Source of the DNA: Ilex aquifolium
Lineage: Eukaryota; Streptophyta; Magnoliopsida; Aquifoliales; Aquifoliaceae
Assembly: GCA_951799425.1 (NCBI GenBank)
Contig: OX637409.1
Coordinates: 11,194,960 to 11,258,959 of the forward strand
Length of the DNA: 64,000 nt
Direction: 5' to 3'
Shown here: positions 19,974 through 59,774 of the stretch, piece by piece
How positions within the stretch are numbered: the first letter of the stretch is position 1
Layout: every line of letters begins with the position of its first letter
The notes under the pieces: model-generated
Seen by the model: the letters and a program-made list of their open reading frames with translations, nothing else
What the model was told of the DNA's origin: nothing
Database searches by the model: none
Translations under genes and position numbers: made by a program

Positions 19974-20085
19974 CGTACCGGTACGCGTACCGGTACGCTG
20001 AACTCCAGAAGCTAGATCGTAACGGTACGCGTACCGGTACGCTGGACTCCAGAAGCTCAATCGTACCGGTACGCGTACCGGTACG
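19974..20085 (+). repeat. 44-bp palindromic module array in 5' LTR of B
   Basis: Three units start at 19974, 20018 and 20062, an exact 44-bp period. Each unit has two tandem copies of the perfect 12-bp palindrome CGTACCGGTACG. Between units lies a 20-bp spacer containing ACTCCAGAAGC. One 12-mer has a C-to-A change (CGTAACGGTACG). The array ends 52 bp before the TATA box, an enhancer-like position. The same module with the same period is in the LTR at 57937. Confidence 0.95.
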
Positions 20086-20137
20086 CCCGATAGAAACCAG
20101 CCCGATCCGACTGCGGGTCTTTCTCCATTTCTTCCAC

Positions 20138-20145
20138 TATAAATA
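20138..20145 (+). promoter_or_regulatory. TATA box of element B 5' LTR
   Basis: TATAAATA directly downstream of the palindrome array. The identical box is at 24992-24999 in the 3' LTR. Transcription start is inferred to be about 30 bases further on. Confidence 0.7.
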
Positions 20146-21700
20146 CTTAAGGCCGACTATTTGAGCCTCATTTCACCCATCCAAACCCTAGGCACCCTTA
20201 GAGAGCAAAAGGGGGAGAGAAAAACACAAAAATTGGGAGAGATTTACAAGATCAAAGCCCTAGTTTTCAAGATTTCACTTCTCCATCCATTCCCTCTTCT
20301 ATAATTTCACTTCACCCTCACTCAAACCTCTTAGAACCAAAAGAGAAAGTAGCAAGGGAGCAAGAAAAAGGGGAAAAAGGGAGTCTTTAAAGCTTGGGTT
20401 GCTAGAGATACTTGGTTGAGGTAGGGGATTTCTTCCTATTCTCTTACATTGAGGCTAGGGTTAAACTATATGTATTTTTTTGGTTCAAAATCATATATAC
20501 TTGCTATTATTTACTTGATTCGTGATCCTCTTGCATTTATTACCATGTTTTAAACATTGTAGTAGTTGGGTAACCATTAAAGGTCCCTTTTTCATTCTCA
20601 AACCCTAGTTTTAAGAAAAATGAATCTTTCCTCTTTACATTTTCCTTGTTCTCACCATCACAACCTTAGTGTTTGATATTGTATAACAAAATAATGTTTA
20701 TGGTGATCTCTTGCTCTTTTTCTTCCATTTTGCTATAGTACACATTGTGAAAATTGGGGACTTGTGTAATTGTTGTTTATGAGAGATATTTGTTGGTATT
20801 TTATCTCTTGGGTGGTTGTACGATACAAACATGGATTACTATGGACCGGGGATCATGTAGTGGGTATACGTCTTTATAGGCCACGCGGGTATGAACTTTT
20901 CCTACCACATGGAGTGGGGTCTGCCTTTGTATGCCGTGTGGGTATAAACTTTTCATATCGCTAATGATCACGGTTTAGTAACGTGGGTGGTATCGGGCAC
21001 ACCGTGTGGGTCATCGTGCATTGTACCAAATACGATTTCTGCAAGAGTTTTGGGGTAGTATGGGATGCCACAAGAACTTGTGGAAATGGTGTATGGTGGG
21101 ATGGATTATGTTTTGAGAATTGATTCTTATTGGTATCTTGTGTTCATTTATTCTTTTAATTACCGTGGTTCCTTAAACTTGAGATCTATTTAAAATGTCC
21201 TGCTTTTCCTTCAAAATGTTATATATGCTATTTGTGAAAATGAGACCAACCGTTTTATATACTTTCCTAAACCTTGTTTGAGTTTGGGAAGATTTTGCTA
21301 CAGAGCTTCGTGCTCATCCCCTACAATTAACATTTTTCAGATTATGCTATAGAGGAGGAGCTTGGCGCTAATGAGCAGGGCCTCGGGGAAGCCTCATTAG
21401 AGGGGTACCTGGATCCCGAGTGGGACATTTAGAGATGCCCTTTTACTTTTGTACTAGACTAGGAACCAATATGTACAAACCTTGTAAAGTTTAGTTTTCT
21501 TTTGTAATTCCGCTGCGCTACATTATTAAATTTTTGAGATGTAAATGTCATGGTTGGGCATATTCTTTTGGATAATGATGTAAATATTTTATGGATGATG
21601 AATGAAGTTTAATTTATTTATGGATGATATTAGTGCTCTCATGATGTGAATGTTTTAGAATGTAATGCCGTCCAGGGTGGTATTTGGGGCGTTAAAGATT

Positions 21701-21712
21701 TGGTATCAGAGC
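21701..21712 (+). promoter_or_regulatory. Primer-binding site of element B (Met-tRNA)
   Basis: TGGTATCAGAGC begins four bases after the 5' LTR. It is complementary to the 3' end of initiator methionine tRNA, the usual primer for chromoviruses and Ty1/copia elements. Confidence 0.9.
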
Positions 21713-21869
21713 TTAGGCTTTAGGTCTTACATGGGAGCTGTAGGTTATGGATTACCACTGGAAAGGTAGGACTAGGTTGAAGGAACTGTAGGCTTGCATT
21801 TGTTTGGAGTTATGTGCTTATCAGATAGGTTAGATTTATTGTATATTTAGGTTAAGGGTTAATTAGTTG

Positions 21870-22230
21870 TTCGGATTCGATGAGTTGTCTCGCTACAAGT
21901 TTGTGGTCACTGAGGCAAGGAGAGCTAAACGCTTTGAACAAGATTTGAGGCCTTCCATCCGCGAGAAGCTGGTTACACTCTTAATTCGAGAATACAAGAT
22001 CTCGTGAACGTGGACGTGTACGTGGACGTGGACGTGTACGGGGACGTGGACGTGTTCGGGGACGTGAACGCGATTGAACAAAGGCTTCAGACAGTGGAGA
22101 AGATGGAGTTACTTAGACGAGAGTAGGCATGGACCCGCGCCCATGCTTTGCATGCGGAGAGTATGGGCACTTCAAACATAGATGCCCCTCGTTTCCCCCA
22201 AGAACCAAGCAAGCAACTGGGCGAGTGAAT
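21870..22230 (+). pseudogene. Element B: gag fragment with CCHC knuckle
   Basis: Only the C-terminal end of gag remains. A RRAKRFEQDLRPSIREKLVTL segment matches the FEDGLKLSIRGKI region of gag in C. It is followed by a GGACGT minisatellite (about 22002-22070) encoding Arg-Gly repeats, then a stop, then the zinc knuckle CFACGEYGHFKHRCP at about 22150. The main capsid domain is deleted. Arg-Gly repeats would favour RNA binding. Confidence 0.75.
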
Positions 22231-22239
22231 GCAAACAGG

Positions 22240-22545
22240 CCACCGCTACGACAACTACTACCACCACGGAGACCGTTACAAGCTCATGCCCCCGGCGGCG
22301 CCAATCAAGGAAGGGTTTTTGCTTTGACCCAACCGGAGGAAGATGCCTCCAATGCCGTTGTGGATGGTATCGTTCTTCTCTACCATGCTTGGGACCGAAT
22401 TCTATTGGATTCCTATGCGACTCATTCTTCTATACGTATTGCAGACGCTGTGGAATTGGGATTGGGTTCCAAGAAGCTAGAACTTACGGTATATGTTGAC
22501 GGGCCTACGGGAAAACAAGGGGATACCAGTAGGGTTTATTTATAT
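22240..22545 (+). pseudogene. Element B: aspartic protease fragment
   Basis: The frame that carries the knuckle continues into GRVFALTQPEEDASNAVVDG and a retropepsin-like start. The expected FDSGASHSFI active site reads LDSYATHSSI, so Gly is replaced by Tyr and the site is probably inactive. Homology ends at about 22530, where unrelated repeat sequence begins. Confidence 0.7.
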
Positions 22546-23600
22546 GTAATCTTTGACTCTAATTTCTATCTACTTGCTATGGAATCATCATGTCTTGCCA
22601 TTTTGGATAATACTACCTTGTCCCAAAATATATTATGGTGGGGTAAACCCTAAATCTTTTCTTATGCCTTCAAACCCTAGTTTACAAAGGAGATGTGTTT
22701 TTCTCTTGATTTCTCCTTTGTTCTTGATTCCCGAACTTAAATATTATTTGTTCTAAGCTATGTTATGGGTGGGTGACCACCAAATCCTTTTGGTATGCCC
22801 TTGAAATCCTAGTTTTCAAGGGAGATGTGTTTTCTTTTTATCTTGCCTTTGTCATTGATTTCAAACCTTGATAGTTGTTTGTTATCGATTCCAATACATG
22901 ATTATTTCGTTAAATCTTAATTTCTCCTTTGTTCATGACTTTCAAGCTTAATATGCATTTGCTCTTGATAGCCAAATTTAATATTCATTTGATTGATTCT
23001 AACTATTGTAATTCATGTATTCTTGATATTCAATATTTGACATCCTTTGGTTCTTAATTTCAAGACTTGGTTGTTCCTTTGTTTTTTTTTAATTTCCCCA
23101 GGCTTGATGATCCATTGGTTCTTGATAGCCAAATTTAATATTCATTTGTTATTGATTCTAACCCTTGTGATTCATTTATTCTTGACATCCAATTGCTCTT
23201 GATTTCAATACTTGATTTCGTCTTGTCCTTGAGTTCAAAACTTGATACTCTTTAGTTCTTGGTTACAAAGCTTGATATGCATCTGTTATTGACTCCAAGA
23301 CTCGATTGTTACTTTGTTCTTGATTTCAAGCTTTGATTGTTTCTTATTTTGATTCCAAAGCTTGATATGGGTTTGTTATGGAATTCGAGACTTGATTGTT
23401 CCTTTATTTTGGATTCCAAAAACTTGAGATTCGTTTGTTATTAATTTCAAACCTTGCTTGTTCTTTTGTTCTTGATTTCCAAGCTTGATAGCCATTTATT
23501 CTCGATTCCAAAGCTTGATTATTTATTTGTTCTTTAATTCAAAATTCTAAAGATTGGTATTGACCAATAAAATGGTATTTTCGATGATATTATGTTAATT
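22546..23600 (+). repeat. Spacer of element B: LTR-like fragment plus TTGTTCTTGATTTCAA minisatellite
   Basis: This replaces the missing RT and integrase core. The first 280 bp resemble the leader part of LTR A (a CTATGGAATCATCATGTCTT block at about 22580 against 18218) and include two diverged copies of a GGAGATGTGTTTT-ending unit (about 22690 and 22825). From about 22830 to 23560 there are about 20 degenerate units built on TTTGTTCTTGATTTCAAGCTTGAT, roughly 40 bp each. No coding potential is seen. Confidence 0.75.
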
Positions 23601-23737
23601 TTTCTTAAATTATTTCGTTGGAAAAATGTAAATGGATTTGGAAGTTAAGATGGGAGGACAAGTCTGGTTAGGTTTCAACTGTAACCTTTGGTGGATTGTA
23701 ATTTATATCAGAGTGCGCAGCGAACTAACGGAGTAAT

Positions 23738-24274
23738 GACTACAATGGGAAAACTACGGAGAAGATTCAACTCATCCGAGAGAGGCTACGCACAGCGCAA
23801 AGTAGACAGAAGAGCTATGCGGACCACAGACGAAGACCCTTAGAATTCAAGGTGGGAGACTACGTATACCTTAAGGTGTCACCCAAGAAAGGCGTGTTTC
23901 GATTCGGCAAGAAGGGGAAGTTAGCGCCAAGATATACCGGACCGTTTGAGATAATCAAAGTGGTAGGCAAGGCGGCATATCAACTTCGACTACCAGCCCA
24001 GCTACCCGGAGTACATGACGTGTTCCACGTGTCGATGTTGAGAAAGTGTCAATCGGATGCAACTCCAGTCGTGGATTTGGAGGATATTGAAATTCAGGAT
24101 GGAGCAACATATGAAGAACAACCGGTGGAGATTCTTGATGCCAAGGAAAAGGTGCTCCGCAACAAAGTCATCCGACTAGTGAAGGTTTTGTGGCAACACC
24201 ATGGAGTGGAAGAAGCTACTTGGGAACCGGAGCAAGAAATGCGGGAGAAGTATCCACGTTTATTCGCTACTTGA
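23738..24274 (+). CDS. Element B: integrase C-terminus with chromodomain
   Basis: An open frame from 23852 (readable with frameshifts from about 23738) encodes VGDYVYLKVSPKKGVFRFGK, then the GPFEII GPY/F-type motif and VFHVSMLRK. The chromodomain region is VEILDAKEKVLRNKVIRLVK followed by VLWQHHGVEEATWEPE. The frame ends naturally at TGA 24272-24274, shortly before the polypurine tract. In chromoviruses this domain guides integration toward heterochromatin. Upstream integrase catalytic parts are absent. An intact chromodomain in an element without a catalytic core is unusual; it may be retained passively because the insertion is young. Confidence 0.85.
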   Translation, partial: DYNGKTTEKIQLIRERLRTAQSRQKSYADHRRRPLEFKVGDYVYLKVSPKKGVFRFGKKGKLAPRYTGPFEIIKVVGKAAYQLRLPAQLPGVHDVFHVSMLRKCQSDATPVVDLEDIEIQDGATYEEQPVEILDAKEKVLRNKVIRLVKVLWQHHGVEEATWEPEQEMREKYPRLFAT

Positions 24275-24296
24275 GGTAAGTTTCGAGGATGAAACT

Positions 24297-24315
24297 TTCT
24301 TTAAGGGGGGTGGAT
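24297..24315 (+). promoter_or_regulatory. Polypurine tract of element B
   Basis: TTTAAGGGGGGTGGAT lies directly before the 3' LTR. It follows the GAGGATGAAACTTTCT motif usual in Tekay/Del-like elements. It would prime plus-strand DNA synthesis. Confidence 0.85.
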
Positions 24316-26550
24316 TGTAACACCCCGAATTTTCTTTTATATATTTATAGAGATATATATATAGTAAATAATATTTGTAAAGATGTAGATATATGTAGTG
24401 ACATAAGAATAAACCGTAGGAATAAATGCTATGGAGACAATTTGATTGGGAAGTTACGTGTCGAAGATGTTTAAACTTGGAAAGGGTGATTAGACAAGTT
24501 TCTAAAAGTTTGTGGGTCAAAATAATGATTCCATTGAATCCGGAAGGTCGAAAAACATTGGGAGTGGTAATATGGATGTATTGGAAGTTAGGAAGTGTCT
24601 CGGAGTTAAAATACACTTTAGCGAGAATTTGGGTAAAAATGGGTATTGAACACTACTTAGTGTTTTGGCCATAATTTTTTATCCTTAAGTCCAATTGATC
24701 TTCAATTTTTACAGTAGATAGTAGACATCTAGGGCTACAAAAGTATGTCTCATACAAATTTTCCAATTCGACCTCTAAATGGGTCAAAACTGCATTGAAA
24801 GTTGAAACAAAAATCTGGAAGTCAAATCGTACCGGTACGCGTACCGGTACGCTGAACTCCAGAAGCTAGATCGTAACGGTACGCTTACCGGTACGCTGGA
24901 CTCCAGAAGCTCAATCGTACCGGTACGCGTACCGGTACGCCCGATAGAAACCAGCCCGATCCGACTGCGGGTCTTTCTCCATTTCTTCCACTATAAATAC
25001 TTAAGGCCGACTATTTGAGCCTCATTTCACCCATCCAAACCCTAGGCACCCTTAGAGAGCAAAAGGGGGAGAGAAAAACACAAAAATTGGGAGATATTTA
25101 CAAGATCAAAGCCCTAGTTTTCAAGATTTCACTTCTCCATCCATTCCCTCTTCTATAATTTCACTTCACCCTCACTCAAACCTCTTAGAACCAAAAGAGA
25201 AAGTAGCAAGGGAGCAAGAAAAAGGGGAAAAAGGGAGTCTTTAAAGCTTGGGTTGCTAGAGATACTTGGTTGAGGTAGGGGATTTCTTCCTATTCTCTTA
25301 CATTGAGGCTAGGGTTAAACTATATGTATTTTTTTGGTTCACAATCATATATACTTGCTATTATTTACTTGATTCGTGATCCTCTTGCATTTATTACCAT
25401 GTTTTAAACATTGTAGTAGTTGGGTAACCATTAAAGGTCCCTTTTTCATTCTCAAACCCTAGTTTTAAGAAAAATGAATCTTTCCTCTTTACATTTTCCT
25501 TGTTCTCACCATCACAACCTTAGTGTTTGATATTGTATAACAAAATAATGTTTATGGTGATCTCTTGCTCTTTTTCTTCCATTTTGCTATAGTACACATT
25601 GTGAAAATTGGGGACTTGTGTAATTGTTGTTTATGAGAGATATTTGTTGGTATTTTATCTCTTGGGTGGTTGTACGATACAAACATGGATTACTATGGAC
25701 CGGGGATCATGTAGTGGGTATACGTCTTTATAGGCCACGCGGGTATGAACTTTTCCTACCACATGGAGTGGGGTCTGCCTTTGTATGCCGTGTGGGTATA
25801 AACTTTTCATATCGCTAATGATCACGGTTTAGTAACGTGGGTGGTATCGGGCACACCGTGTGGGTCATCGTGCATTGTACCAAATACGATTTCTGCAAGA
25901 GTTTTGGGGTAGTATGGGATGCCACAAGAACTTGTGGAAATGGTGTATGGTGGGATGGATTATGTTTTGAGAATTGATTCTTATTGGTATCTTGTGTTCA
26001 TTTATTCTTTTAATTACCGTGGTTCCTTAAACTTGAGATCTATTTAAAATGTCCTGCTTTTCCTTCAAAATGTTATATATGCTATTTGTGAAAATGAGAC
26101 CAACCGTTTTATATACTTTCCTAAACCTTGTTTGAGTTTGGGAAGATTTTGCTACAGAGCTTCGTGCTCATCCCCTACAATTAACATTTTTCAGATTATG
26201 CTATAGAGGAGGAGCTTGGCGCTAATGAGCAGGGCCTCGGGGAAGCCTCATTAGAGGGGTACCTGGATCCCGAGTGGGACATTTAGAGATGCCCTTTTAC
26301 TTTTGTACTAGACTAGGAACCAATATGTACAAACCTTGTAAAGTTTAGTTTTCTTTTGTAATTCCGCTGCGCTACATTATTAAATTTTTGAGATGTAAAT
26401 GTCATGGTTGGGCATATTCTTTTGGATAATGATGTAAATATTTTATGGATGATGAATGAAGTTTAATTTATTTATGGATGATATTAGTGCTCTCATGATG
26501 TGAATGTTTTAGAATGTAATGCCGTCCAGGGTGGTATTTGGGGCGTTACA
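24316..26550 (+). repeat. 3' LTR of element B
   Basis: 2235 bp, the same length as the 5' LTR. Substitutions noticed by eye include a G-to-T in the second palindrome unit (near 24886), C/T near 24676, G/T near 24703, G/A near 24713, G/T near 25096, A/C near 25342, and A/C at the end. The palindrome array is at 24828-24939 and TATAAATA at 24992-24999. Confidence 0.92.
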
Positions 26551-29992: not shown

Positions 29993-32040
29993 TGATGAGC
30001 ACGTAATATTGCATATTTAATGGACTCATTACATGCATTTAACTCAACTTTGCATTTAATTACTTAGAGTTAGTCTAATTTATGAATAATGTGGAAATTT
30101 TGATGTTGTAGGTAATCATAGGGTAAATGATTGCTTTTGGAACCCTGCAACTAAGTATGGATGAGTGGTGAAGAGATGGACACATTACATGAGGATTAGA
30201 AGGCTTTAAAGTGAAAGAAATCAAGTAGGTAGGGGAACTTGGTATAGTATGTACTGGTATCTAAACCTACTGGAATTTTGGTTCGGCACCCTTACCAATT
30301 GGTAGTAGTACCTCGGTATTTTGCATCTTCGACCATGATCTACTTTGAATCTGAAAAAGTTAAAAACATGAAATTTGTATATTTGGATGTCCTCTATTTT
30401 TTTTTGGAAAATTTCAGCTCAATCGGATGGTGGGATCAAAATTTATGACAAATTTACAAAAACTGGTACTGAGCTACCGGTAACAGACCACTAACTACCT
30501 ACCAGTAGCACCCCCCCCCCCCCTTACGACCTACCAGTAGAACCTTAAAACTTACCTGTAGAAGACCCTAATGGAAGTTATCTACGAGTAGAAGTCCCAG
30601 GATCTACTCGTAGAACTTGCCCAGAAAGCCCAGACACTTCCCCACATGAATCCACCAACCATGGGGGCCCACCTTTTGTTCTCTAAACCATGCCCTGACA
30701 TTTTTAACACTCCATGATAATATCTTAACCCCTATATTTAGATTTGAAGCATGAGAGAGTGGGTGGCCAAGGAAGAGAGAGGGAATGGTTGGAAAAGGAA
30801 AGAGTCCATGCCTTTTGACTGACTTTGGAAGCTTTTTTGGACAACCTCTGCCCACAAGCAACCTATCTCAGCACACTCAAGGGTAGAGAGAGGGGGATGG
30901 ACGAAAATATAAGTCTTCCTATATATATTTTCAGATATCAAGCTTTTAGGGGAGAAAGCTTTTAGAGAGAGAGGCTATCTAAGCTTAGCAGTAGTATAGA
31001 GAGAAAAAGCTGGGTTTTCCATTTTTCCTTCACCATTTCATTCTTGTAAGCTTCAATCTTAAAGTAATCTTTCTTTCTAACAGATTAATCTTGTTTATTT
31101 CAAGTTGTATTGATCTTAGCTAGGGTTTGCTAGTTCTATTGTTTGCATTTGGCTATTTTCTCTTTAAGCTTTTCATTTTGTCTACGAATGCTATTTGTTT
31201 TGTAGTTTAAACTTCTTCTTACATTAATGCAAGTCTATGTTTGATTTCATTACCATGTTTTTCTCTTTAATGTTGTTCTTGCCTTTATCATGCATAGCTA
31301 AACCTTTAGTTGGCTAATCCAAGAGGGATTTCCTGTTGGGTATGTGAAATCGACTCTCTTTCATTCTTCCTCATAGTGTAAAGTGTTTGGTTTGACTAGG
31401 TTCAGTGCGGACGTAGTTGTGGGATTTTGATACACCATAGACTTCTCACAAGGTATGTTTTTTCCCAACACAACTACATTAGTCCCTCACTTCCTACAAA
31501 TCAATCAAACACTAAGACACCATTGGTTTCATGAAATGAATCGATTTGACATACCCATTGGAATGAACTCTATGGATTAGCCAACCCTATTTTTACTTGC
31601 ATATTTCTCAAAACAAAAATCACCAAACTTTAAATCAAAATAATTTTCATTTTTTCCTTTCACAAATTACTTTTGAAAACAGGGTTCATTCCAATGGGTA
31701 TGTCAAGTAAAAATAGACAACCTTGTCAGGGAAGGATAAGCGTCAAAAATATTTTCGAAGGTGAATGGGTCGTTTTGGTCAAAAATACTTCCCTGACAAA
31801 TTACCTTTCCTTCCCTGAGGAGACAACCTTGGAATACTCATTCCAAGTAAAACACGACATTGCAAGACTCTCTCTACGCTTGTGGAGCACTTTTGCACAC
31901 ACACACTTTTGTTCATCCGCACATAATTTTTCCCACTTCTTGCATTGAAACCGATGGTGAGTGACACTCACCAACCTCTATAAGCCATATATACACAAAA
32001 TCCGTGTTCGTGTTTGGAGATTACGAAAAACGACCAAGCA
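29993..32040 (+). repeat. 5' LTR of element F (TGATGAGCAC family)
   Basis: Starts TGATGAGCACGTAATATTG and ends GACCAAGCA, 2048 bp. It aligns with LTR 57937-59774 over most of its length, but its palindrome array uses CTAC(C/G)(G/A)GTAG units (30472-30615) instead of CGTACCGGTACG. It includes 13 consecutive C at 30511-30523 and an AT-rich TATA-like stretch TATATATA near 30920. Confidence 0.85.
30472..30615 (+). repeat. CTACCGGTAG-type palindrome array in LTR F
   Basis: CTACCGGTAA, CTACCAGTAG (twice), CTACGAGTAG and CTACTCGTAG occur within 145 bp, separated by 20-50 bases, with a run of 13 C inside. It lies at the position corresponding to the CGTACCGGTACG module of the related LTR at 57937. 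Confidence 0.8.
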
Positions 32041-34861: not shown

Positions 34862-36518
34862 TGCTCCCCAAGCATAGAGAGACTTGCAATGTCGTGTTTT
34901 ACATGGAATGAGTATTCCAATGTCATCTCCTCAAGGAAGACAAGATCGGGTGTTTTTTTAAGAGTGATTTGTGAAAAAATGAAAATTGGAAAATCTTGTG
35001 ATTTGAAATTTGGTGAGTTGTGAGTTAAAAAATATGCAAGGAAGCCTGGTTGGCGAATCCATAGAGTTCATTCCAATAGGAATGCCAAATCAACTCATTT
35101 CATTCAATCAATGGTGTCTCGATGTTTGATTGATTTGTAGGACTTGAGGGACTAATGTGGATATGTTGGACAAGAGCATACCCCGTGACAAGTCTGTGGT
35201 GTATCAAAATCCCACAACCACGTCCGCACTCAACCTAGTCCAACCAAACATGTTACACTACGAGAAGAATGAAAGAGATTAGATTTCACATACCCAAGAA
35301 GAAATCCCTCTTGGATTAGCTAGCTAAAAGTTTAGCTATGCATGGTAAAGACAAGAGCAAACATTAAGTAGAGAAATATAGTACTGAAATCGAACACAGA
35401 CTTGTATTAATTTAAAAGAAAGTTTAAACCACAAAAGAAAAGCTATTCATTTCCAAAATGTAAAGCGTAAAGGAAATAGGACCCAAATGTGGAAATGAGC
35501 CACAAGAAACTTACCTGAGCCTAATTACAACTTGAATAAAAGAGATTAAAGTGCTAAAGGGAAATATTACATGTGAAATGGAGCTTACTACAATGAAAAT
35601 GGTGAAGGAAAATGTAAAACCCAACTTTCTCTCTAGAACTTCATCTTCTTCCTTGGACATTCTCTCTCTAAAACTTTTATAATTTGAAAATGTATATAGG
35701 AGGTCCCTATTTTCATCCATCCCCCTCTCCCTTAGCATGAGTGGCTGACTTGGAGTGATTGCAGAGAGGTTTTCCACAAAAGATTCCAAAATCAGTCAAG
35801 GTATGGTCTTCCCATGCTTTTCCAACTACTCCCTCTCTCTACACTGGCCACCCTCTCTCTCATGCTTAAAATCTAAATATAGGGGATAGGAGATCATCAT
35901 GGAGTGTTAGAACTATGAGAGCATGGATAAAGTGACCAAAGGTGGGCCCCTGTAGTTGGTCGAGTCGTTTGGAGAACGATCTGGATTTTCTGGGCATCTT
36001 CTACCAGTAGCTTGTAAGGCTCCTACCGGTAGCTCATTTACAGTAGGGTCTTCTACCGGTAGCTCGTAAGGATCCTACCAGTAGGTCTTTGCAGGGAAGC
36101 ACTGGAAGCTACTTTCCAGTAGGCGCTTCTACCGGTGGGTCTTGCAGGTCTTCTACCGATATCTCATTTCCAATAGGGTCTTCTACGGGTAGCTTGTAAG
36201 GTTCCTACCAGTAGGTCTTGTAGGGAGGCATTGGAAGCTGTTTTCCAGCAGGCTCTTCTATCGGTAGCTCAGATAGGTCTTCTACTAGTAGCTCATCTCC
36301 TTATCTTGAAATTCTTGGTTCCTTGAGGTTTCGCATCATCCGTCATAAGATCCTTTCTTCCCCATTGACCTTAATCACTTGATGGGGTGCTTTATGCTTG
36401 CCCTTTTCAGCCTATCACCTACAATCAAATCAATCTCCATTTTCCCAAAAATTAACTACAAAACAAGTTAAATTAGATGCAATGAAGATGCTTAATATGA
36501 AATGTTCCACACTCATCA
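34862..36518 (-). repeat. 3' LTR of element E, main part
   Basis: Read on the minus strand it starts TGATGAGTGTGGAACATT at 36518. It contains the CTACCGGTAG array (36003-36290), a TATATA box near 35692, and the GACTTGTCACGG block near 35187. It breaks at the insertion of F. Confidence 0.85.
36003..36290 (-). repeat. CTACCGGTAG palindrome array in LTR E
   Basis: Perfect CTACCGGTAG occurs at 36023-36032 and 36053-36062. There are at least seven variants (CTACCAGTAG, CTACCGGTGG, CTACGGGTAG, CTATCGGTAG, CTACTAGTAG and others), spaced about 30 bp by AGCTC(G/A)TAAGG or AGCTCATTT-CAGTAGG spacers. The 5' LTR has the corresponding array at 45933-46072. On the minus strand the array lies about 300 bp upstream of a TATATA box. 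Confidence 0.85.
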
Positions 36519-45782: not shown

Positions 45783-46319
45783 CCACTCTCTCATGCTTAA
45801 AATTTGAATATAGGGGATAAGAGATCATCATCGATAGTTAGAAAATGTACGAGCATGGATTAGGTGACAAAAGGTGGGCCCCCATAGTTGGTGGATTCGT
45901 TTGAAGAAGGATCTGGGTTTTTTGAGCATGTTCTACCGGTAGCTCATAAGGCTCCTACTGATAGCTCATTTCCAGTAGGATCTTCTACCAGTAGGTCATG
46001 CAAGTAGGCATTGGAATCTAATTTCCAGTAGGCTCTTCTACCGGTAGCTCAGACAGGTCTTCTACCGGTAGCTCATCTCCTTGTCTTGAAATTCTTGGTT
46101 CCTTGAGCTCCCGAGCCATCCATCATGAGATCCTTTCTTCCCCATTGACCTCGATCACTTGATGGGGTGCTTTATGCTTGCCCTTTTCAACCTATCACCT
46201 GCAATCAAACCAATCTCCATTAATTATCACTTTGAATCCATTTCCCCAAAAATTCAGTACAAAACAAGTCAAATTGGATGCAATGAAGATGATTAACCTG
46301 CAATGTTCCACACTCATGA
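45783..46319 (-). repeat. 5' LTR of element E, 5' part
   Basis: Homologous to 35870-36518. It ends (minus-strand start) at 46319 as TCATGAGTGTGG, where the 3' LTR has TGATGAGTGTGG. The palindrome array lies at 45933-46072 (CTACCGGTAG three times). The usual polypurine-tract counterpart is absent here, as expected for a 5' LTR. Confidence 0.85.
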
Positions 46320-47247: not shown

Positions 47248-49433
47248 TGTAAAACCCGGGTAAATTTGAACTTTTTCTGAAAAAGGGCAAAATGGTAATT
47301 TGCCACTATAACACGTATTTAAAATACTCATGTTTCTAGAGTTCGGATGACACAACAGACTTCTCCATTGGACTCGTATCGCGGAAACTAGTTACCCTGT
47401 CAAATTTCATCGAAATCCGAGATAGTCGGATTTTGCACGTATTTCGAGACGATTAGGCGGCGGCTGACCTCACAAAGGTCCTCACAAATAAATTTTATAA
47501 AATTTCCTTATAATTGAATTAAAGTTCAAATAAAATTAATTTGAACTTAAACCGGGATGAAATTAATCGTTTCGGGGCAGAAACGGACCTGGGAAAGAGG
47601 GGAGCGTGTGGCGCGATCTGAACCAAGTCTTTAAAATTATAAATAAGGCAAAATATCTAAATTTTGCAGAGAATTTTCTGCTGGTTGTGCTAGTTTTAGA
47701 GTGTGGGAGAAAGAGGGAGAGAAAAGTGAGTTTTCAAGTTTTCTTTCGGCGATTCTCGGAGTTCCGTTGGTCGGAATCCGTCGAGCCAAGAATTAAACTT
47801 CATCTTCTCGACAAGGGCTACGCATACGTACCAAGAACGAGGAATTTCACCGAAGATCCAAATGAGGAGATTTGGAGAAATCAAGTTTTGGGGAGCTTGG
47901 GAGGTGTTCTTGGAAGCTCTACCTTTCAATTTACGCACCAAGAGGTAGGGGTCTTCCTACTTAGGTTTTATTCCTACTTTAGTGGCTGTTTTGTGCACTA
48001 CCATGGGGTTGAATTTGTGCACTGTTATGGGCTGTTTTGGGGATGAATTTGAGGCCTGATTTGGGACTGTTTTTGTGGCCTGTTTGAGACTGTTTATGGC
48101 CTGTTTAGGGGGCTGTTTGTGGCCTGTTTTGTGGCTTGATTTGGGACTATTTTGGTGGCCTGTTTGTGGCCTGTTTTGTGGCCTGATTTGAGACTGTTTA
48201 TGGCATGTTTAGGGGGCTGTTTGTGGCCTGTTTAAGGGGCTATTTTGTGATTCTTTTCGGGGCTGTTTTATGGACTGTTTTTGGGCCGTTAGGTGGGCTG
48301 TTATGTGGGCTATAACATGGGTTGTTATGTGTTATTTTGTGTCATTGTGATTATGTGTTATTGGCATAAAAATTGTGATAACATGCTCGGAATTGTGTTA
48401 TGAAAATTGTCAATGTATATGCATGCTTGTGTTATATTGACATTGTGGAGAATTATGGGAATTATATGCTTATGATATAATTTTGTCATAGCATATAATA
48501 TGTTTTCTTTGTGCAATGGGACATCATATTGCATATGCACGGTGACATCGCATCATGTGGGTGTGTGCATGGTTGTCGTCAACATCACACTTGGTGGATG
48601 ACGAGTGGGCTCGATTAAGATTGGTCGAAGACCTGGCCGAGTCACACAGGTTGCATGGTGATTAGGGTTGGGGTTAGAAAGAAGGGATTAGAAGATCCCT
48701 CGGGTGCAAGGCCCGGTGGTTGGGATACGCACTCCCTTGGCTTGGTCCATCAAATGTGTGGGTGTACGCTGAACCCTTGGTGGAAGTCCATAAATTCCGA
48801 GTAGGTTGGAGACCCTTGGTGTAAGCCCATGAACATCCACCCCACACAAAGACCCTAGATTGGTAAAAGTCATTTGATGTGCAACATAAATGACGGTTCC
48901 ATACACTTTGGCACTTGCATGTGTTAAGGATCTGGGAATGGCTCGGGTTGATTTGCATGAGTGAGTCTCATCTCATTTAATGGCATGATACGATAAATTT
49001 CAACATTGAATGCATATCCTTGCTTGGAATGTTATGGATTGTTGTTTGTTGCATGTGAGCATTACACGCGCATCTAGGGTGGTGAGTAGCCTCTGTAGGA
49101 GATACTCTATTGAGCGTTGCTCACCCTATACGGGAAAAGATTTCAGGTGCGGGTTTTACGCCGACGGACAGCACTCACTTGGGCACTTGAGGAGGAAGAA
49201 AAGCCGGTGTGGTCATTGTTTTAAATTGGGTCTCGGATGGGTCATGTGAATGTATATTGCACAGGTTGGGTTTTAGGTAGAGCTCCCCGTACAAAGGAGA
49301 CTCTGCCCGATTTTTGTTCAATTATGGACCCCGATAAATGGGCATAACGGTGCGATATCGAGTTACTCGGTAGCCACGGGTATTCCGCAGGTTGATGGAT
49401 AATCAACGGACCCCTGGATTTTGGGGCGTCATA
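47248..49433 (+). repeat. 5' LTR of element C
   Basis: Starts TGTAAAACCCGGGTAAATTT and ends GGGGCGTCATA. TATA box TATAAATA at 47638-47645. A GAGC-gtt-GCTC hairpin lies at 49112-49122. It lacks a segment of about 170 bp near 49205 and one of about 50 bp near 48490, both present in the 3' LTR. Confidence 0.92.
47985..48330 (+). repeat. GGCCTGTTT minisatellite in 5' LTR of C
   Basis: More than 20 degenerate copies of a 10-20 bp unit based on (G/T)GGCCTGTTT(T/G)GTGG and TTTGGGACTGTTT. It consists almost only of G and T plus CC. The matching block in the 3' LTR is 55185-55540, with different unit numbers. Confidence 0.85.
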
Positions 49434-52976: not shown

Positions 52977-53790
52977 TGACAGGACACGGAGATATTGTCC
53001 ATCAGGGACCGGGTACGATCGGGTACAGGTGACGAAGGCTGGGCCATTCACACGGATGGTAATCTTTGGTATAGGGGAAAGGTTGTGGTTCCCCAGTTGG
53101 CGGATCTGAGAGAGCAGATCCTCAGGGAGTTCCATTGCTCCCGTTTTGCTGTGCATCTAGGTGGCACGAAGATGTACCATGATCTTCGTTGCCAGTATTA
53201 CTGGAGTGGGATGAAGAAACACGTTGGGGATTTTGTTCGTCGATGTCTCACGTGTCAGCAAGTAAAGGCTGAGCACCAGAGACCAGCGGGATTACTCCAG
53301 CCTTTGCAGGTAGCTGAGTGGAAGTGGGAGCATGTCACGATGGATTTTGTGACTCACTTGCCATGAACATCGCGAGGGCATGACGCGGTGTGGGTGATAG
53401 TGGACCGGCTTACTAAGTCGGCACAATTTTTGGTTGTGCGGATGACCTTTACTCTGGAAGAATTCTGCAGGTTGTACATACGGGAGATTGTCCGGTTGCA
53501 TGGGGTGCCCATATCTATAGTATCGGATCAGGATCCCAGGTTTACGGCTCATTTTTGGGAGAGTTTCCAGCGAGCCATAGGGACACAGTTGATGATGAAC
53601 ACTGTTTTTCATCCCCAAACGGACGGTCAGTCGGAGAGGACCATCTAGACTTTAGAGGACATGCTACGAGCATGCGTCCTAGATCTAAAGGGTAACTGGG
53701 ATGAGCACTTACCCTTAGTGGAGTTCGCCTACAACAACAATTATCAGGCGAGCATATATATGGCACCCTATGAGGCACTATAAGGAAGTC
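52977..53790 (+). pseudogene. Element C: integrase zinc and core domains
   Basis: After a TGA at 52977-52979 the frame includes the HHCC zinc domain (FHCSRFAVHLGGTKMYHDL, then CLTCQQVK) and the catalytic core: WEHVTMDFVTHLP, VDRLTKSAQFL, SDQDPRFTAHFWESF and HPQTDGQSERTI. The three catalytic acidic residues (D in MDF, D in SDQDPRF, E in QSERT) are present. Stops at TGA 53364-53366 and TAG 53646-53648, and a TAA near 53781. Confidence 0.9.
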
Positions 53791-54381
53791 CTTGTCGATC
53801 TCCGGTTTGTTGGACGGAGGTAGGAGAGAGACCCTCTACGGGTCCGGATTTGGTTAGGGACACCTCTAAGAAGGTGGATTTGATACGAAAACGTCTTCTC
53901 ACGGCTCAGAGCCGGCAGAAGAGCTACGCCGACAGACGGCGGTGACCTCTAGAGTTTGAGGTGGGGGATCATGTCTTCTTGAAGGTGATGCCTAAGAGAG
54001 GAGTGGTCAGGTTCGACAAGCGGGGAAAGCTGTCGCCGAGGTATATCGGGCCCTTCGAGGTACTCGAGAGGGTAGGTACAGTTGCTTACCGGTTGGCGTT
54101 ACCACCAAATCTATCGGGTGTTCATGCGGTATTCCATGTCTCTATGCTCCGGAAGTATACTCCAGATCCGACTCATGTGGTGGATTGGGGTGAGCTTGTC
54201 GTTGATGCGGATGGAACCTTCGAGGAGGGACCGGTACGTATCATGGATAGCCGGGACCAGGTTTGCGAGGCAAGACCATGAGGCTAGTGAAGATGCTGTG
54301 GCAGCACCGAGGAGTGGAGGTGGCAACATGGGAACACGAAGACACTATACGTACCAATTATCCTTTCTTATTTGAGGATGA
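53791..54381 (+). pseudogene. Element C: integrase C-terminus with chromodomain
   Basis: After a TGA at 53943-53945 an open frame encodes [40 protein letters not shown] and [10 protein letters not shown]. The chromodomain starts [13 protein letters not shown] frameshift near 54265 then moves its second half ([20 protein letters not shown], then YPFLFEDEG) to another frame. It is homologous to the intact chromodomain in B. Confidence 0.88.
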
Positions 54382-54464
54382 AGGTACTTTCTTATAGTCA
54401 TTTAATATTAAATGACTGTTGCATATGCATGTGATTGTATGTGTAAATTTCGGGGACGAAATTC

Positions 54465-54480
54465 TTTTAAGGGGGGAAGA
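54465..54480 (+). promoter_or_regulatory. Polypurine tract of element C
   Basis: TTTTAAGGGGGGAAGA follows TTTCGGGGACGAAATTC and directly precedes the 3' LTR, the standard arrangement for Tekay/Del-like elements. Confidence 0.9.
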
Positions 54481-54481
54481 A

Positions 54482-56850
54482 TGTAAAATCCGGGTAAATT
54501 TGAACTTTTTCTAAAAAAGGGCAAAATGGTAATTTGTCACTATAACGCGTATTTAAAATACTCATGTTTCTAGAGTTCGGATGAAACAACAGACTTCTCC
54601 ATTGGACTCGGATCGCGGAAACTAGTTACCCTGTCAAATTTCATCGAAATCTGAGATAGTCGAATTTTGCACGTATTTCGAGGCGATTAGGTGGCGGCTG
54701 ACCACACAAAGGTCCCCACAAATAAATTTTATAAAATTTCCTTATAATTGAATTAAAGTTCAAATAAAATTAATTTGAACTTAAACCGGAAAAGAGGGGG
54801 CGTGTGGCGCGATCTGAGCCAAGTTTTTAAAATTATAAATAGGGCAAAATATCTAAATTTTGCAGAGAATTTTCTGCTGGTTGTGCTGGTTTTAACGTGT
54901 GGGAGAAAGAGGGAGAGAAAATTGAGTTTTCAAGTTTTCTTTCGGCGATTCTCGGAGTTCCGTCGGTCGGAATCCGTCGAGCCAAGAATTAAATTTCATC
55001 TCCTCGACGAGGGCTACGCGTACGTACCAAGAACGATGAATTTCACCGAAGATCCAAATGAGGAGATTTGGGGAAATCAAGTTGTGGGAGCTTGGGAGGT
55101 GTTCTTGGAAGCTCTACCTTTCAATTTACGCACCAAGAGGTAGGGGTCTTCCTACTTGGGTTTTATTCCTACTTTAGGGGTTGTTTTGTGCACTGTTATG
55201 GGCTGTTTTGGGGCTGAATTTGTGGCCTGATTTGGGACTGTTTTTGTGGTCTGTTTTATGGCCTGTTTTGTGGCTTGATTTGGGACTGTTTATGGCCTGT
55301 TTAGGGGGTTGTTTGTGGCCTGTTTTGTGGCCTGATTTGGGACTGTTTTGTGGCCTGATTTGGGACTGTTTTGGGACTGTTTTTGTGGCCTGTTTTATGG
55401 CATGTTTGTGGCCTGATTTGGGACTGTTTATGGCCTATTTAGGGGGCTGTTTGTGGCCTGTTTTATGGCCTGTTTAAGGGGCTATTTTGGGACTATTTTC
55501 GGGGCTGTTTTATAGACTGTTTTTGGGCCGTTAGGTGGGCTGTTATGTGGGCTATAACATGGACTGTTATGTATTATTTTGTGCCTTTGTGATTATGTGT
55601 GTTATTGGCATAAAAATTGTGATAACATGCTTGGAATTGTGTTATGAAAATTGTCAATGTATATGCATGCTTGTGTTATATTGACATTGTGGAGAATTAT
55701 GGGAATTATATGCTTATGATATAATTTTTCCATGGCATATATGAAATGTATTGATATTGTTTATATGTTTTTCATAGCATATAATATGTTATCTTTGTGC
55801 AATGGGACATCATATTGCATATGCACGGTGACATCGCATCATGTGGGTGTGTGCATGGTTGTCGTCAACATCATACTTGGTGGATGACGAGTGCGCTCGA
55901 TTAAGCTTGGTCGAAGACCTGGCCGAGTCGCATAGGTTGCATGGTGATTAGGGTTGGGGTTAGCAAAAAGGGATTAGAAGATCCCTCGGGTGCAAGGCCC
56001 TTTGGTTGGGATACCCACTCCCTTGGCTTGGTCCATCAAGTGTGTGGGTGTACGCGGAACCCTTGGTGGAAGTCCATAAATTCCGAGTAGGTTGGAGACC
56101 CTTGGTGTAAGCCCATGAACATCCACCCCACACAAAGACCCTAGATTGGTAAAAGTCATTTGATGTGCAACATAAATGACGGTTCCATACACTTTGGCAC
56201 TTGCGTGTGTTGAGGAGCTGGGAATGGCTCGGATTGATTTGCATGAGTGAGTCTCATCTCATTTCATGGCATGATACGATAAATTCCAACATTGAATGCA
56301 CATCCTTGCTTGGAATGTTATGCATTGTTGTTTGTTGCATGTGATTGCATGCGCATCTAGGGTGGTGAGTAGCCTCTGTAGGAGATACTCTATTGAGCGT
56401 TGCTCACCCTATACGGGAAAACATTTCAGGTGCGGGTTTTACGCCGACGGACGTCACTCACTCGGGCACTTGAGGAGGAAGAAAAGCCGACTTGTGGCTT
56501 TCAATCCATTTTTTTGTAAAATGAGACTTGTGATTAAATTTGGGCATGTAATATATGAAAAAGAATTGTAATCAAACTTATATGGACTATTCTAATATAA
56601 CATGGCATGTTATTTTATGAGTATGGATAAATGACCCGGTGCGGTCATTGTTTTAAATTGGGCCTCGGATGGTTCATGTGAATGTATATTGGGTAGAGCT
56701 CCCCGTACAAATGATACTCTGCCCGATTTTTGTTCAATTATGGACCCCGATAAATGGGGCATAACGGCGCGATATCGAGTTACTCGGTAGCCACGGGTAT
56801 TCCGCAGGTTGATGGGTAATCAACGGACCCCCGGATTTTGGGGCGTCACA
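54482..56850 (+). repeat. 3' LTR of element C
   Basis: Starts TGTAAAATCCGGGTAAATTT and ends GGGGCGTCACA, 2369 bp. TATA box TATAAATA at 54834-54841; hairpin GAGC-gtt-GCTC at 56395-56405. It is longer than the 5' LTR because of the 56490-56650 and 55735-55780 segments. It differs from the 5' LTR by many single substitutions, so C is older than B. Confidence 0.92.
55185..55540 (+). repeat. GGCCTGTTT minisatellite in 3' LTR of C
   Basis: Counterpart of 47985-48330. It translates as a Trp/Leu/Cys-rich pseudo-repeat, which is an artefact of the GGCCTGTTT units rather than a protein. Confidence 0.85.
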
Positions 56851-56855
56851 GTTGG

Positions 56856-57249
56856 GGCACTATGAATGGGTTACCAAGGTGGCTACTAATTCTATAGGGG
56901 ATTGGTGATTTGTAACTTTGGTATATAGATATATTTGAATGAATCCTACTTTGGGAGGACTTTGTGGGCTTGCAATTGCCACCGCGGTCGGCTTTAGTTA
57001 GATTATATTATGATGGATGGATTTTTTGGATGTTTAGTTAGTTTGAATTATGTTATGCTCTCATAGGGATGCTCTTACTAGCTTGTTGAAAGTTCGATTT
57101 TCAAATGAAATACTATCATATTTTTCTTAAAAGTATATTTATATTGAATCAAATATTTAATTTAATTTGATTAATATTGTAAACTGGCAACATGTTTTTA
57201 GATAAATATTTTTTTTATTAAATCAGGCTTTAATGAAAATTGAGGCATG
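56856..57249 (+). other. Unassigned LTR-like tail
   Basis: The target into which C inserted. It is AT-rich and has no ORF. It ends AAAATTGAGGCATGACA at 57251, which looks like the end of a Ty3/gypsy LTR (compare GGGGCGTCACA). The matching start was not found. Confidence 0.35.
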
Positions 57250-57310
57250 ACAGATGAAGAAAGGGAGGGGGAGAGACTCGAACTGTATCTTTCCTAATGA
57301 TTATACATGT
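57250..57310 (-). other. Possible SINE-like B box
   Basis: On the minus strand GTTCGAGTCTCT (57283-57272), followed by CCCCCTCCCTTTC, resembles the tRNA-type internal promoter box B found in plant SINEs. No box A was identified at the proper distance, so this is weak. Confidence 0.25.
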
Positions 57311-57936
57311 GGAATTACTACACACAACCTAGAGGGGGTGAATAGGTTAATTAAAAATTAAGGCTCAGACAATGACCAATTTAAACCTAATCGACCATAA
57401 TTACCAATTAGTTAATTAGCTCTTCGAACCATTTTTTACCCACAAGAACCCAACATATGACTAAATGGATGATTAATATATGAAATCAATTAATTCACCG
57501 ATCCAATCACCCAACCCTTATATCCCACAAATAAGCAAACAATCCACAAAACCCAATCGATGAATATGTCAAATAGAGACTTTAAACAATCCCTCCATCG
57601 AACACATTATGAGTGTGAGCGTGCGCGCATTATTGTAAGTGTGTATGAAAAATAAAGGAATAAAAGTCATCGACAATGCAAGAAATTTGTTGATATGGAA
57701 ACACTTTTCGAGAAAAATCACAGAATCGACCGTTGGTCACCTAAAGCCTAATCCACTAAACTCAAGGTCAATTTACAAGTACTCTAGTCTTATACCTCAA
57801 CCAATTCACATGGTTACATGCTCCTTTTTGTTGTAAATCTCCCCTATGGATTTACCACCGAAGTATTGAGTAGCTTCAATTGGAAACGCTTACCGTAATG
57901 AACTATCAAGTCCCCTTGAGCAATCTTCTAGGATGC
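57311..57936. other. Copia-LTR-like sequence with TAGAGGGGGTGAATAGG
   Basis: At 57329-57350 the sequence reads CCTAGAGGGGGTGAATAGG, a motif I associate with abundant plant Ty1/copia LTRs. The rest is AT-rich with no gene. It probably continues beyond the solo LTR at 59775. Orientation is uncertain. Confidence 0.4.
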
Positions 57937-59774
57937 TGATGAGCACAAAATATTGTATATTTCAAGGCCTCATTACATGCATTTTAACTCAACTTGGTAT
58001 TTAAGTACTTAGAGTTAGCCGAAATTATGAATAATGTTGAATTTTCGATTTTACAGGTAATTATAGCGTAAATGATGGATTTTATAACCTTGCAACTAAG
58101 GATGAATGAGCGGTAAAGAGATGGACACATTCAATGAGGATTTGGAGGCTTAACGGTGAAGAAACCAAGAAAAATGAAATTTGGAAGGTTTAGCCCACTG
58201 GTTTCCCAAAGTTTTGACACAGTACCGCTGTGTTTCTCATTTTTGACCATGATACACTTCGAATCTGAAAAAGTGCAAAACATGAAAGTTGTAGATCTGG
58301 ACGTCTTCTGTATTGTGCCAAAATTTTAGCTCAATCGTACAGTTGGATAAAAAGTTATGATAATTCTACGAAAACTGGTCCAGAGCAGGCAAACCGTACC
58401 GGTACGCGTACCGGTACGCCGAACTCCAGTAGCCAAACCGTGCCGGTACGCATACCGGTACGCCGTGCCCAGAATGCCCAGAACAGCCCAGACGCCTGCA
58501 AATCATATCCCACTTGCTTGGGGGTCCCACCTACACTTCTCCCACACCTATCCCAACATGTTCTACCTACAACCATGCCTCCCTTACACAAATTGAAGAC
58601 TTTGGAGGCTTGGCATTTAAGGAGGATGGGACAGAAGAGGGCAGCCATGATGGTTGCAGGCTAGGCTTGTCTTAGCCTGTCAAGGGCCATCAACTCACCT
58701 ACCATTGATGGGAGGCCTGCACACAGACCCTGGGGACCCTCATGGACGAAAATGAAGTCTCTACACACCATATATTCAGCATTACACAAGACATTGAGGG
58801 GTGGCTACCTAAGCTTAGAATAGTTAGGAAGAAGATGAATAGTAGAAATGTTTATGTTTTTGCATTTTATTCCATCTTTTCACTTGTAGTTTAATGTAAG
58901 GATCTTGTAAGCTTCATTTATTGTCTTTAATGTCATTTATTTCAAGTTTAGTTCTACATTTTACATTTCACCATTGTTATGTCAAGCTTTCTTCATTTCT
59001 TAGTTTTAAAGTGGGTATTGTATTTCTCTCTTTGTAGTTAAGTTTTCTTGCATTAAACTAAGTTCAAATCTTCATTTCTCTACAATGTCTTTCCAATATA
59101 TCATTGTCTTTCCTTCAAGTATGATTAGCTAGAGTTTTAGTTGGTTAATCCAAGGGAGACCTCCCCGTGAGGATTCCATTTCAACTCTTTTTTTTTCCTC
59201 CACTCGGTGTATGGTGGTTCGGTTTGACTGGGTTGAGAGTGGATGCGGTTGTGAGTCTTTGATATCCCGTAGGCCTGGTCACGGGTTACGCTTGGATCCT
59301 CACCTCCATTTCGTCCCTAGCTTCCCACGAATCAATCGTTCATCTATGCATCATTGGAGGAAGGCATTGAGTTGGATTGGCATCCTCATTGGAGTGAACT
59401 CTTTGGATTAGCCAACACTTGTTTTCATTTCATTTTCATTCAAAACATCACTCACAAAACTCAAACAAAAGATTTTACACTTTTCCTTTTTGACAAAATC
59501 ACCTTCACACACTTGAACTTTCCTTCCCTGAGGAGACGACCTTGGAATACTCTTCCAAGTAAAACACGACACGCAAAAGACTCCTTGCGCTTGGGGAGCA
59601 CTTTTGTTCATTTCGCACATTTCCTATTTCATACATTTCATTTCCACCACCATTCCGTTGCCTTTCTTTTGACATCATCCCAATGGAGAGTGACACTCCC
59701 TTCGCACCTACATCATATACACATTAAGGGATGGTTTTTAGAGGTTAGGAAACAACAATGTTTTTCATCAAGCA
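57937..59774 (+). mobile_element. Solo LTR, TGATGAGCAC family
   Basis: Starts TGATGAGCACAAAATATTG and ends TTTTTCATCAAGCA. Flanks gatgc (57932-57936) and aatgc (59775-59779) differ by one G/A. It is homologous along its length to the minus-strand solo LTR 13002-14836. It carries two 44-bp palindromic modules (58395-58462) and a TATATT box near 58769. No internal region. Confidence 0.82.
58395..58462 (+). repeat. 44-bp palindromic module array in TGATGAGCAC LTR
   Basis: Two units start at 58395 and 58439, period 44 bp. The first has two perfect CGTACCGGTACG 12-mers. The second has CGTGCCGGTACG and CATACCGGTACG. The spacer contains GAACTCCAGTAGCC. Unit structure, period and spacer match the array in the LTRs of chromovirus B. 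Confidence 0.95.

Follow-up and report, generated by a model that had tools for sequence, protein, structure and literature searches.

How do retrotransposons that differ in primer site and polymerase come to carry the same short palindromic sequence in their long terminal repeats (LTRs)? The question is raised by a 64,000-nucleotide stretch of the Ilex aquifolium genome (contig OX637409.1, positions 11,194,960 to 11,258,959; hereafter the window), where a sequence-only reading had described one tandem palindrome module both in a Ty3 chromovirus, element B, and in LTRs of the Athila/Tat type. Analysis of the window and of the 800-Mb assembly (103 contigs) showed that several Ty3 LTR types have a common slot filled by different words, this module being one of them. 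On balance, and with modest confidence, we favour the view that the array is an upstream LTR promoter cassette that has been exchanged between Ty3 lineages and has a role in LTR transcription.

Palindrome arrays in the window

Below, P stands for a 12-bp palindrome, PP for the 24-mer double palindrome and 20 for a 20-bp spacer; the word CGTACCGGTACG defines class a, CTACCGGTAG is word b and CTTCCGGAAG is word c. The arrays of the window, with other occupants of the slot, are as follows.

19974..20085, plus strand: 5' LTR of B, array PP-20-PP-20-PP of word CGTACCGGTACG with spacer core TCCAG
24828..24939, plus strand: array PP-20-PP-20-PP, as in the 5' LTR, in the 3' LTR of B
20138..20143, plus strand: TATAAA of element B, 52 bp past the array end
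58395..58462, plus strand: array PP-20-PP, word CGTACCGGTACG, LTR C
14322..14377, minus strand: array PP-20-P, LTR D
30475..30616, plus strand: Athila-type LTR E, same slot, degenerate CTACCGGTAG word
35998..36300, minus strand: Athila-type LTR F, same slot, CTACCGGTAG word
45930..46075, minus strand: Athila-type LTR H, same slot, CTACCGGTAG word
3333..3372, plus strand: Athila-type LTR I, CTTCCGGAAG word
9768..9806, plus strand: Athila-type LTR J (partner of I), CTTCCGGAAG word

The arrays that had been claimed are present: the window holds 14 exact copies of CGTACCGGTACG, each with three CpG dinucleotides by inspection, and all of them lie within 14322-14377 (minus strand), 19974-20085, 24828-24939 and 58395-58462. 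The palindromes had been described as perfect, but those at 20018, 24872, 24884, 58439 and 58451 have one mismatch each. The 44-bp period was recovered in B (Tandem Repeats Finder, 2.7 copies), and the minus-strand array in D is PP-spacer-P; 44 bp is the period of double palindrome plus spacer, and the constant feature of B-type copies is the 20-bp spacer, flanked by one or two palindromes on each side.

Genome-wide occurrence and LTR types

The genome search that had been proposed for the double palindrome returned 6,044 places at two mismatches or fewer, against none for the backward-read control (the 24-mer is its own reverse complement, so both strands give equal counts). LTR types were tabulated for 47 arrays, 43 in 40 loci around the first listed 24-mer places, all on one contig (C1), and four in the window. 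By flank, 22 belong to a chromovirus type called alpha, 12 to the type of B (beta), five to gamma (the type of C and D), four to delta and two to epsilon (L028 by anchor, L031 by eye); the remaining two are an array with another word (L013:953) and one that was unplaced (L024:503). Seven further loci from the 24-mer listing are alpha-like or B-type. Delta is shown to be an LTR by a repeat pair of 99.0% identity, and we take it to be of the Athila/Tat type because it begins with TGATTAGCAC, much as C and I begin. The two LTR families originally named are thus too few, as flank and anchor comparisons place the module in more LTR types.

Three other origins were rejected. The suggestion of a cis-element mobilised on its own is not supported by the first sample, in which flank, LTR pair or anchor assigned 45 of the 47 arrays to an LTR type and one more (L031) was assigned by eye. 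A satellite or simple repeat is at odds with B-type arrays of only one to six palindromes, and chance occurrence is excluded by the mirrored controls for the 24-mer, for CTACCGGTAG pairs and for the generic unit described below. The 24-mer had no match in IMG/VR contigs, a collection that is uninformative for plants.

A common unit with several words

The typical unit of the arrays reads CCGG, 9 or 10 nt, TCCAG, 13 nt, CCGG, and is used with at least three words: GTACCGGTAC, CTACCGGTAG and CTTCCGGAAG. The generic pattern CCGGN{8,13}TCCAGWAN{8,14}CCGG, which permitted 42 gap combinations, matched 13,393 places (6,812 + 6,581) against 27 (15 + 12) for the mirrored control. Among the matches listed, which came from the first part of C1 only and were rich in one CTTCCGGAAG cluster, 34 of 39 distinct strings had gaps of 9 or 10 and 11 around the 7-nt core, and in most of them the two inner halves correspond (AAGG/CCTT in 12, TACG/CGTA in 4, TACT/AGTA in 3, and others). 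Fetched DNA contained 52 cases of TCCAG[AT][AG] with CCGG within 20 nt on both sides, 50 of them with gaps of 10 and 11 from the 7-nt core, and a single case with the mirrored core. In a larger fetched set, where the core was TCCAG or TCTAG/ACCAG/GCCAG and gaps of 7-12 and 10-15 were searched, 86 of 87 units had gaps of 9 or 10 and 13 from the 5-nt core. These fetched sets lean to class a (68 of 87 in the larger one), and their loci had been chosen via such searches; the independent evidence for the unit is the genome-wide generic pattern. Pairs of CTACCGGTAG were found genome-wide at 2,044 and 2,002 places, against a control of 0.

Different words fill one slot. All ten independent Athila-type LTR places examined (12 hits, as two of the places were hit twice) have CCGG palindromes directly upstream of a conserved downstream box, with CGTACCGGTACG at five, CTACCGGTAG-like words at four and CTTCCGGAAG at one. 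Used as a palindrome-free anchor, this box matched 2,017 places (control 0), and 40 stretches, all on C1, were fetched; two proved to be 26-base slips, leaving 38 copies. Palindromes, in some cases a single one, occur in 37 of these 38 Athila-type copies, the exception being L114. With L114 and L119 left out of word parsing, the majority word in the 36 parsed copies was of the GTACCGGTAC kind in 25 (19 CGTACCGGTACG-like and 6 AGTACCGGTACT-like, often mixed within one array), CTACCGGTAG in 9 and CTTCCGGAAG in 2. On the chromovirus side, L054 carries CTACCGGTAG and is 85.5% identical to positions 160-502 of the B LTR, almost up to the array, while L063 carries GGTACCGGTACT and has flanks 83% and 84% identical to B, such that GTACCGGTAC and CTACCGGTAG are each found in both lineages in the homologous slot. 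The B-type upstream 20-mer, at one mismatch or fewer, matched 1,202 places (control 1), and all 40 exact 20-mer copies fetched (contigs C2 and C3) carry CGTACCGGTACG; this anchor is close to B itself and is silent on distant relatives, and some of the 40 may be LTRs of one element.

Two observations on related dyads stand apart. Among the generic-pattern matches listed, eleven places within 131 kb of C1 (60681-192013), on both strands and roughly 6 to 29 kb apart, share one CTTCCGGAAG unit set and may be a cluster of LTR pairs or a local duplication. At L067 (C1:610150-610950), odd-centred dyads of the form AACCGG-T-CCGGTT occur with TCCAG at steps of about 31 bp.

Turnover and low divergence

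Divergence was measured on the 40 flank-picked B-type copies, replacing a palindrome-picked estimate that was biased. These copies show 13 array forms, from P up to PP-20-PP-20-PP, and every parsed spacer is 20 bp long; counting palindromes with up to three mismatches, 137 of 162 are perfect. Differences outside CpG sites affected 5 of 972 palindrome cells versus 88 of 1,657 cells of the 52-bp flank that leads to TATA (38 copies, L094 and L107 having been dropped from the flank count), about a tenfold difference (Fisher P 6e-13 if cells are independent). Copy number and orientation also change. In one alpha element, whose LTRs are 98.4% identical, one LTR has a 12-bp palindrome more than the other, and a flank tree of Athila-type LTRs (43 rows and 136 columns, with 9 starred among its 40 inner branches) requires at least five in-slot inversions over 36 labelled rows; the sisters L113 and L118 (98/97) differ in unit orientation.

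Hairpin-templated correction and slippage might instead keep and multiply palindromes with no function in their sequence, an explanation that we consider unlikely. The difference between P and PP in the LTRs of one element fits it, as do compensated changes: one of three palindromes with two or more changes has the compensated form CGTATCGATACG (L089), and among 32 imperfect double palindromes, which were palindrome-picked, ten had at least two changes, three of these ten with a change mirrored across the 24-mer, which in one of the three (L025) lies at its centre. The existence of CTACCGGTAG arrays that lack the TCCAG core points the same way. What it leaves unexplained is a TCCAG core held at a set distance with different palindromes, and the placement of B-type arrays just upstream of TATA.

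Host elements and probable exchange between lineages

The elements that bear on lineage in the window are these.

19462..21696, plus strand: 5' LTR of chromovirus element B, starting TGTAACACCCC...; LTR pair 99.7% identical
21701..21712, plus strand: primer binding site TGGTATCAGAGC of element B
23729..24274, plus strand: open reading frame (ORF) with SH3_Tf2-1 (Pfam PF24626, 7.4e-26) and a weak chromodomain match (PF00385, 5.4e-4)
24316..26550, plus strand: 3' LTR of B, which ends TTACA and is followed by GGGAT
57937..59773, plus strand: Athila/Tat-type LTR C, its 3' limit being the end of the alignment with D and no mapped LTR end
13001..14836, minus strand: Athila/Tat-type LTR D, its inner limit set by the alignment with C

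Element B runs from TGTAACACC to TTACA between GGGAT target-site duplications, and from its sequence we take it to be a chromovirus. Its last ORF is 64% identical to the pol of L022 over 171 aa, with a chromodomain match of 20.3 bits (E 5.4e-4) that lies under the Pfam cut-off of 25.1, and ORFs of B and of an alpha element (L007/L008) match the Ty3-type Pfam families RVT_1, RVP_2, Retrotrans_gag and SH3_Tf2-1. The primer site TGGTATCAGAGC is of the initiator Met type; such sites occur in other Ty elements too and are not exclusive to chromoviruses. LTRs C and D (14836-13001) are 80% alike, and both are related to E, F, H, I and J; the last two bound an internal region whose pol resembles an ORF of L023. 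The name Athila follows the sequence-only reading; Athila/Tat-type is the safer label.

The reverse transcriptase (RT) of the Athila-type ORF in L023 is 32% identical to a B-type RT (L017, counted as B-type by its position behind a B-type LTR) and 37-40% identical to alpha-like chromovirus pols, of which two were compared; between B-type and alpha RTs, identity reaches 80% over 170 aa. This RT value of about 32% separates B from the Athila-type pol of L023, and the stated difference in pol may extend to gamma, where the comparison covered gag (that of L020 is 39% identical to the gag-pol of L023). As to primer sites, B has TGGTATCAGAGC, and the Asp-type site TGGCGCCGTTGCC is intact in L023 and L014 but mutated in the gamma copy L020. 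An LTR beside an Asp-type site (L014, L010) carries another palindrome, CGTCCGGACG, with TTCCAG nearby, at L014 1154-2233 and 7508-8587 (a pair 99.8% identical) and at L010 3862-3953; it is possible that this is a further word of the same code.

Spacers of class-a arrays were compared at 15 variable positions, with the 5-nt core left out. B-type and gamma spacers (9 and 3 distinct, 27 pairs) differ on average at 4.1 of these positions and in the closest case at none; for B-type and alpha spacers (9 and 18 distinct) the average is 9.3 and the smallest difference 5. Column-wise random pairs differ at a mean of 8.3 positions, and at one or none with a frequency of 5e-5. Gamma and delta spacers differ at 6 positions or more (mean 7.3), and epsilon spacers differ from gamma at a minimum of 3 (mean 4.7) and from the B type at a minimum of 4 (mean 6.6). 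The ranking is contrary to RT similarity (80% versus about 32%), and because the B spacer is close to that of the far lineage and unlike that of the near one, exchange between lineages, as the sequence-only reading had proposed, is supported. In our reading, the B-type and gamma pools have exchanged material at least once, and words are otherwise passed down within subfamilies. Three word kinds fill the Athila-type slot across 36 parsed copies, whereas all 40 close B-type copies hold class a, which weakly favours transfer from the Athila type to the chromovirus; other words are, however, also present in more distant B-type relatives (L054, L063).

Contrary to the sequence-only reading, similarity between the two LTRs is not limited to the array. 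The gamma flank upstream of the array matches the reverse complement of the B flank at 50 of 71 positions (70-75% in several copies), and the local alignment scores of this segment, M2, of 45 and 55 exceed those of all 500 shuffles in each case (maxima 34 and 37). M2 is found in the window at the following positions.

58278..58359, plus strand: LTR C, M2 in sense orientation, upstream of its array
14413..14494, minus strand: M2 in LTR D, profile seed
19816..19888, minus strand: 5' LTR of B, M2 inverted, upstream of its array, profile seed
24670..24742, minus strand: M2 inverted in the 3' LTR of B, profile match
17249..17535, plus strand: two M2-like copies (17249-17330 and 17453-17535) in LTR type A (TGTAACAACCC...), beside CAGTGCACTG palindromes

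The M2 profile was seeded with C, D, B and the two type-A copies, which had been found by eye, and its type-A matches are thus by construction; it also matches LTR E in the window, and one place each in L016, L018 and L021. Type A (TGTAACAACCC, 17177-17575) contains a tandem repeat with a 205-bp unit, and every copy of the unit includes an M2-like segment as well as a CAGTGCACTG palindrome. Because M2 is inverted between B and gamma, it argues for mosaic LTRs rather than colinear descent.

The LTR families might nonetheless be homologous around the module, with flanks that have diverged beyond recognition. The presence of M2 in B and in the Athila type makes the LTRs partly related, and the clustering of words on the flank tree also fits common descent. 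We regard it as improbable, given the opposite orientation of M2, which means that the flanks are not colinear, the B-gamma spacers that are closer than the B-alpha spacers, contrary to RT, and the three word kinds in homologous Athila-type slots.

Promoter position and proposed role

The distance of 52 bp from array end to TATA that had been given for B was confirmed in both of its LTRs, and nine further B-type copies have 51-52 bp, making 11 of 11 examined. In alpha copies the array lies 73-82 bp upstream of TATA in 10 of 19, and farther in three.

Position relative to TATA, low divergence and helical spacing together lead us to infer that proteins bind the dyads, with a partner at TCCAG. 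A typical unit comprises two CCGG-centred palindromes, each the probable site of a homodimeric DNA-binding factor, and a TCCAG core 9-10 nt and 13 nt from the flanking CCGG, placing palindrome centres 31-32 bp apart, or about three helical turns; CTACCGGTAG arrays also use 20-22 bp, about two turns, with no core. The two observed step lengths are indeed near three and two helical turns. The palindrome sequence would act as a replaceable word, and cassettes would grow and shrink by whole palindromes and palindrome-spacer units. They would pass between Ty3 lineages most likely via recombination of co-packaged or nested copies, and their most plausible role is in driving or protecting LTR transcription. 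SPL-type GTAC, CAMTA-type CGCG and LBD-type CCGG motifs might point to candidate factors, none of which is claimed here.

A broader proposal, which we offer tentatively as possible rather than probable, is a transferable promoter code in the Ty3 elements of this genome, with a common frame (two dyads about three helical turns apart around a TCCAG core, plus a two-turn variant) and interchangeable words read by dimeric factors, where words and cassettes might be traded between chromovirus and Athila/Tat-type elements in an arms race with host silencing.

Several results weigh against the promoter cassette and its exchange. Words are clustered on the flank tree (3 changes versus a shuffled mean of 11.1), which makes word swaps rare events. 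The spacer signal is weaker over all pairs, at 8.0 for the same word in different superlineages (n 303) versus 9.5 for different words in the same superlineage (n 310), in a comparison where we assigned the lineage labels and many cells consist of no more than two spacers. Within the core itself, L011 and LTR C of the window, which form the closest B-gamma pair, differ by one base. Athila-type RT was read in L023 and the I/J element, whereas in gamma the comparison covered gag. The TCCAG unit is not universal: 18 of the 26 distinct CTACCGGTAG pairs listed have a step of 20-24 bp without TCCAG, and the others are seven with TCCAG at a 30-32 bp step and one without it at 32 bp. This, together with the chromodomain of B falling under its cut-off, slightly lowers our estimate for the preferred explanation and for the broader proposal. 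CpG intactness in palindromes (463 of 486) and flank (139 of 152) did not differ significantly (P 0.10), and the tenfold difference at other sites is affected by a flank figure raised through scoring against one majority over several subfamilies and by palindromes with more than three mismatches or an indel being uncounted (among them one with an extra base in each of L069 and L105). Low divergence could also arise via homogenisation. Finally, TATAA was absent within 260 bp in 5 of 5 gamma copies and 6 of 19 alpha copies.

If the signal were instead carried by RNA, neighbouring palindromes would pair with TCCAG in the loop and serve stability, dimerisation or the production of small interfering RNAs (siRNAs). 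Variable self-complementary arms around a constant loop core suit a stem-loop, and palindromic LTR regions of maize Sireviruses were reportedly tied to siRNAs by Bousios and colleagues (Genome Research, 2016). For a hairpin it is enough that the arms are complementary to each other, and neither has to be palindromic in itself; one unit pairs two different words (L053, CTTCCGGAAG/CTACCGGTAG), and the array of B, judged from the position of TATA, is expected to lie outside the 5' end of the transcript; we rate this role as quite improbable. Extension of the stem into the spacer, examined by eye, failed across classes. Convergence, in which unrelated LTRs independently gained the same factor sites in the way that heat-response elements recur in COPIA LTRs (PMC5059998), is very unlikely, since identity reaches the family-variable spacer positions, all 15 of which agree in the closest pair among the 27 B-gamma comparisons.

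Other repeats in the window

Low-complexity arrays with an 11-12-bp unit rich in TGTGGCC occupy 48048-48331 and 55182-55550, within stretches that are 88% alike (47248-49206 versus 54482-56489). A tandem repeat with a 69-bp unit containing CCGTCGCAAA lies at 63530-63803 (3.9 copies).

Comparison with known systems

LTR promoters are usually treated as a property of their lineage. With a frame and changing words that can be read from sequence, one can test by what route control sequences become common to unrelated retrotransposons, and whether the rapid change of the dyads tracks a host factor or evades silencing; TCCAG offers a handle for finding bound proteins. If the promoter code is true, LTR promoters evolve by cassette exchange and word replacement. 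Searches of the open-licence literature showed neither these words nor any description of cassettes exchanged between LTRs of chromoviruses and of the Athila type, an absence that carries little weight.

Several known systems offer partial parallels. COPIA LTRs of several families gained heat-response elements as host-factor sites, and the part of that paper drawn on describes no palindrome array or exchange between families (PMC5059998). The word CTTCCGGAAG fits the heat-response consensus TTCnnGAA and contains TTCCGGAA, whereas CGTACCGGTACG and CTACCGGTAG do not fit and, on inspection, show no adjacent nGAAn and nTTCn units. VANDAL transposons encode their own anti-silencing protein, VANC, whose short target motifs form tandem arrays in non-coding transposon parts; the motif YAGTATTAY is no palindrome and is rare in other transposons (PMC5735166). 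Like the words described here, VANC motifs change fast between related copies and families, but unlike them they are not shared across lineages. Chromovirus LTRs of the Del type contain 5' CpG islands variable in length and sequence, suggested to be a moving target for silencing, and the eudicot Del elements of that study had no island (PMC4029996). The likeness is a variable CpG-rich stretch in chromovirus LTRs, which here takes the form of a structured palindrome cassette; palindromes are unmentioned in the portion of the Del paper cited.

The nearest published case is that of the repeated-motif (RM) boxes of Sirevirus LTRs. These are palindromic, multi-copy sequences upstream of TATA in CpG islands, with a proposed regulatory role; near-identical boxes occur even where the elements are otherwise little alike. 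Nearly all carry a CGG-CCG signature, and they belong to Ty1/copia elements, being reported absent from the classic elements compared (PMC2829016). The arrays of I. aquifolium are alike in placing several palindromes in the LTR upstream of the promoter (by TATA distance for B-type and part of alpha; single-palindrome copies exist). They are unlike RM boxes in that their words are CCGG-centred (CGTACCGGTACG, CTACCGGTAG, CTTCCGGAAG), in that their hosts are Ty3 chromovirus and Athila/Tat-type LTRs, and in having a TCCAG spacer core at a set distance and evidence of exchange between lineages in one genome. Palindromic LTR boxes would thereby be extended from Sireviruses to Ty3 lineages.

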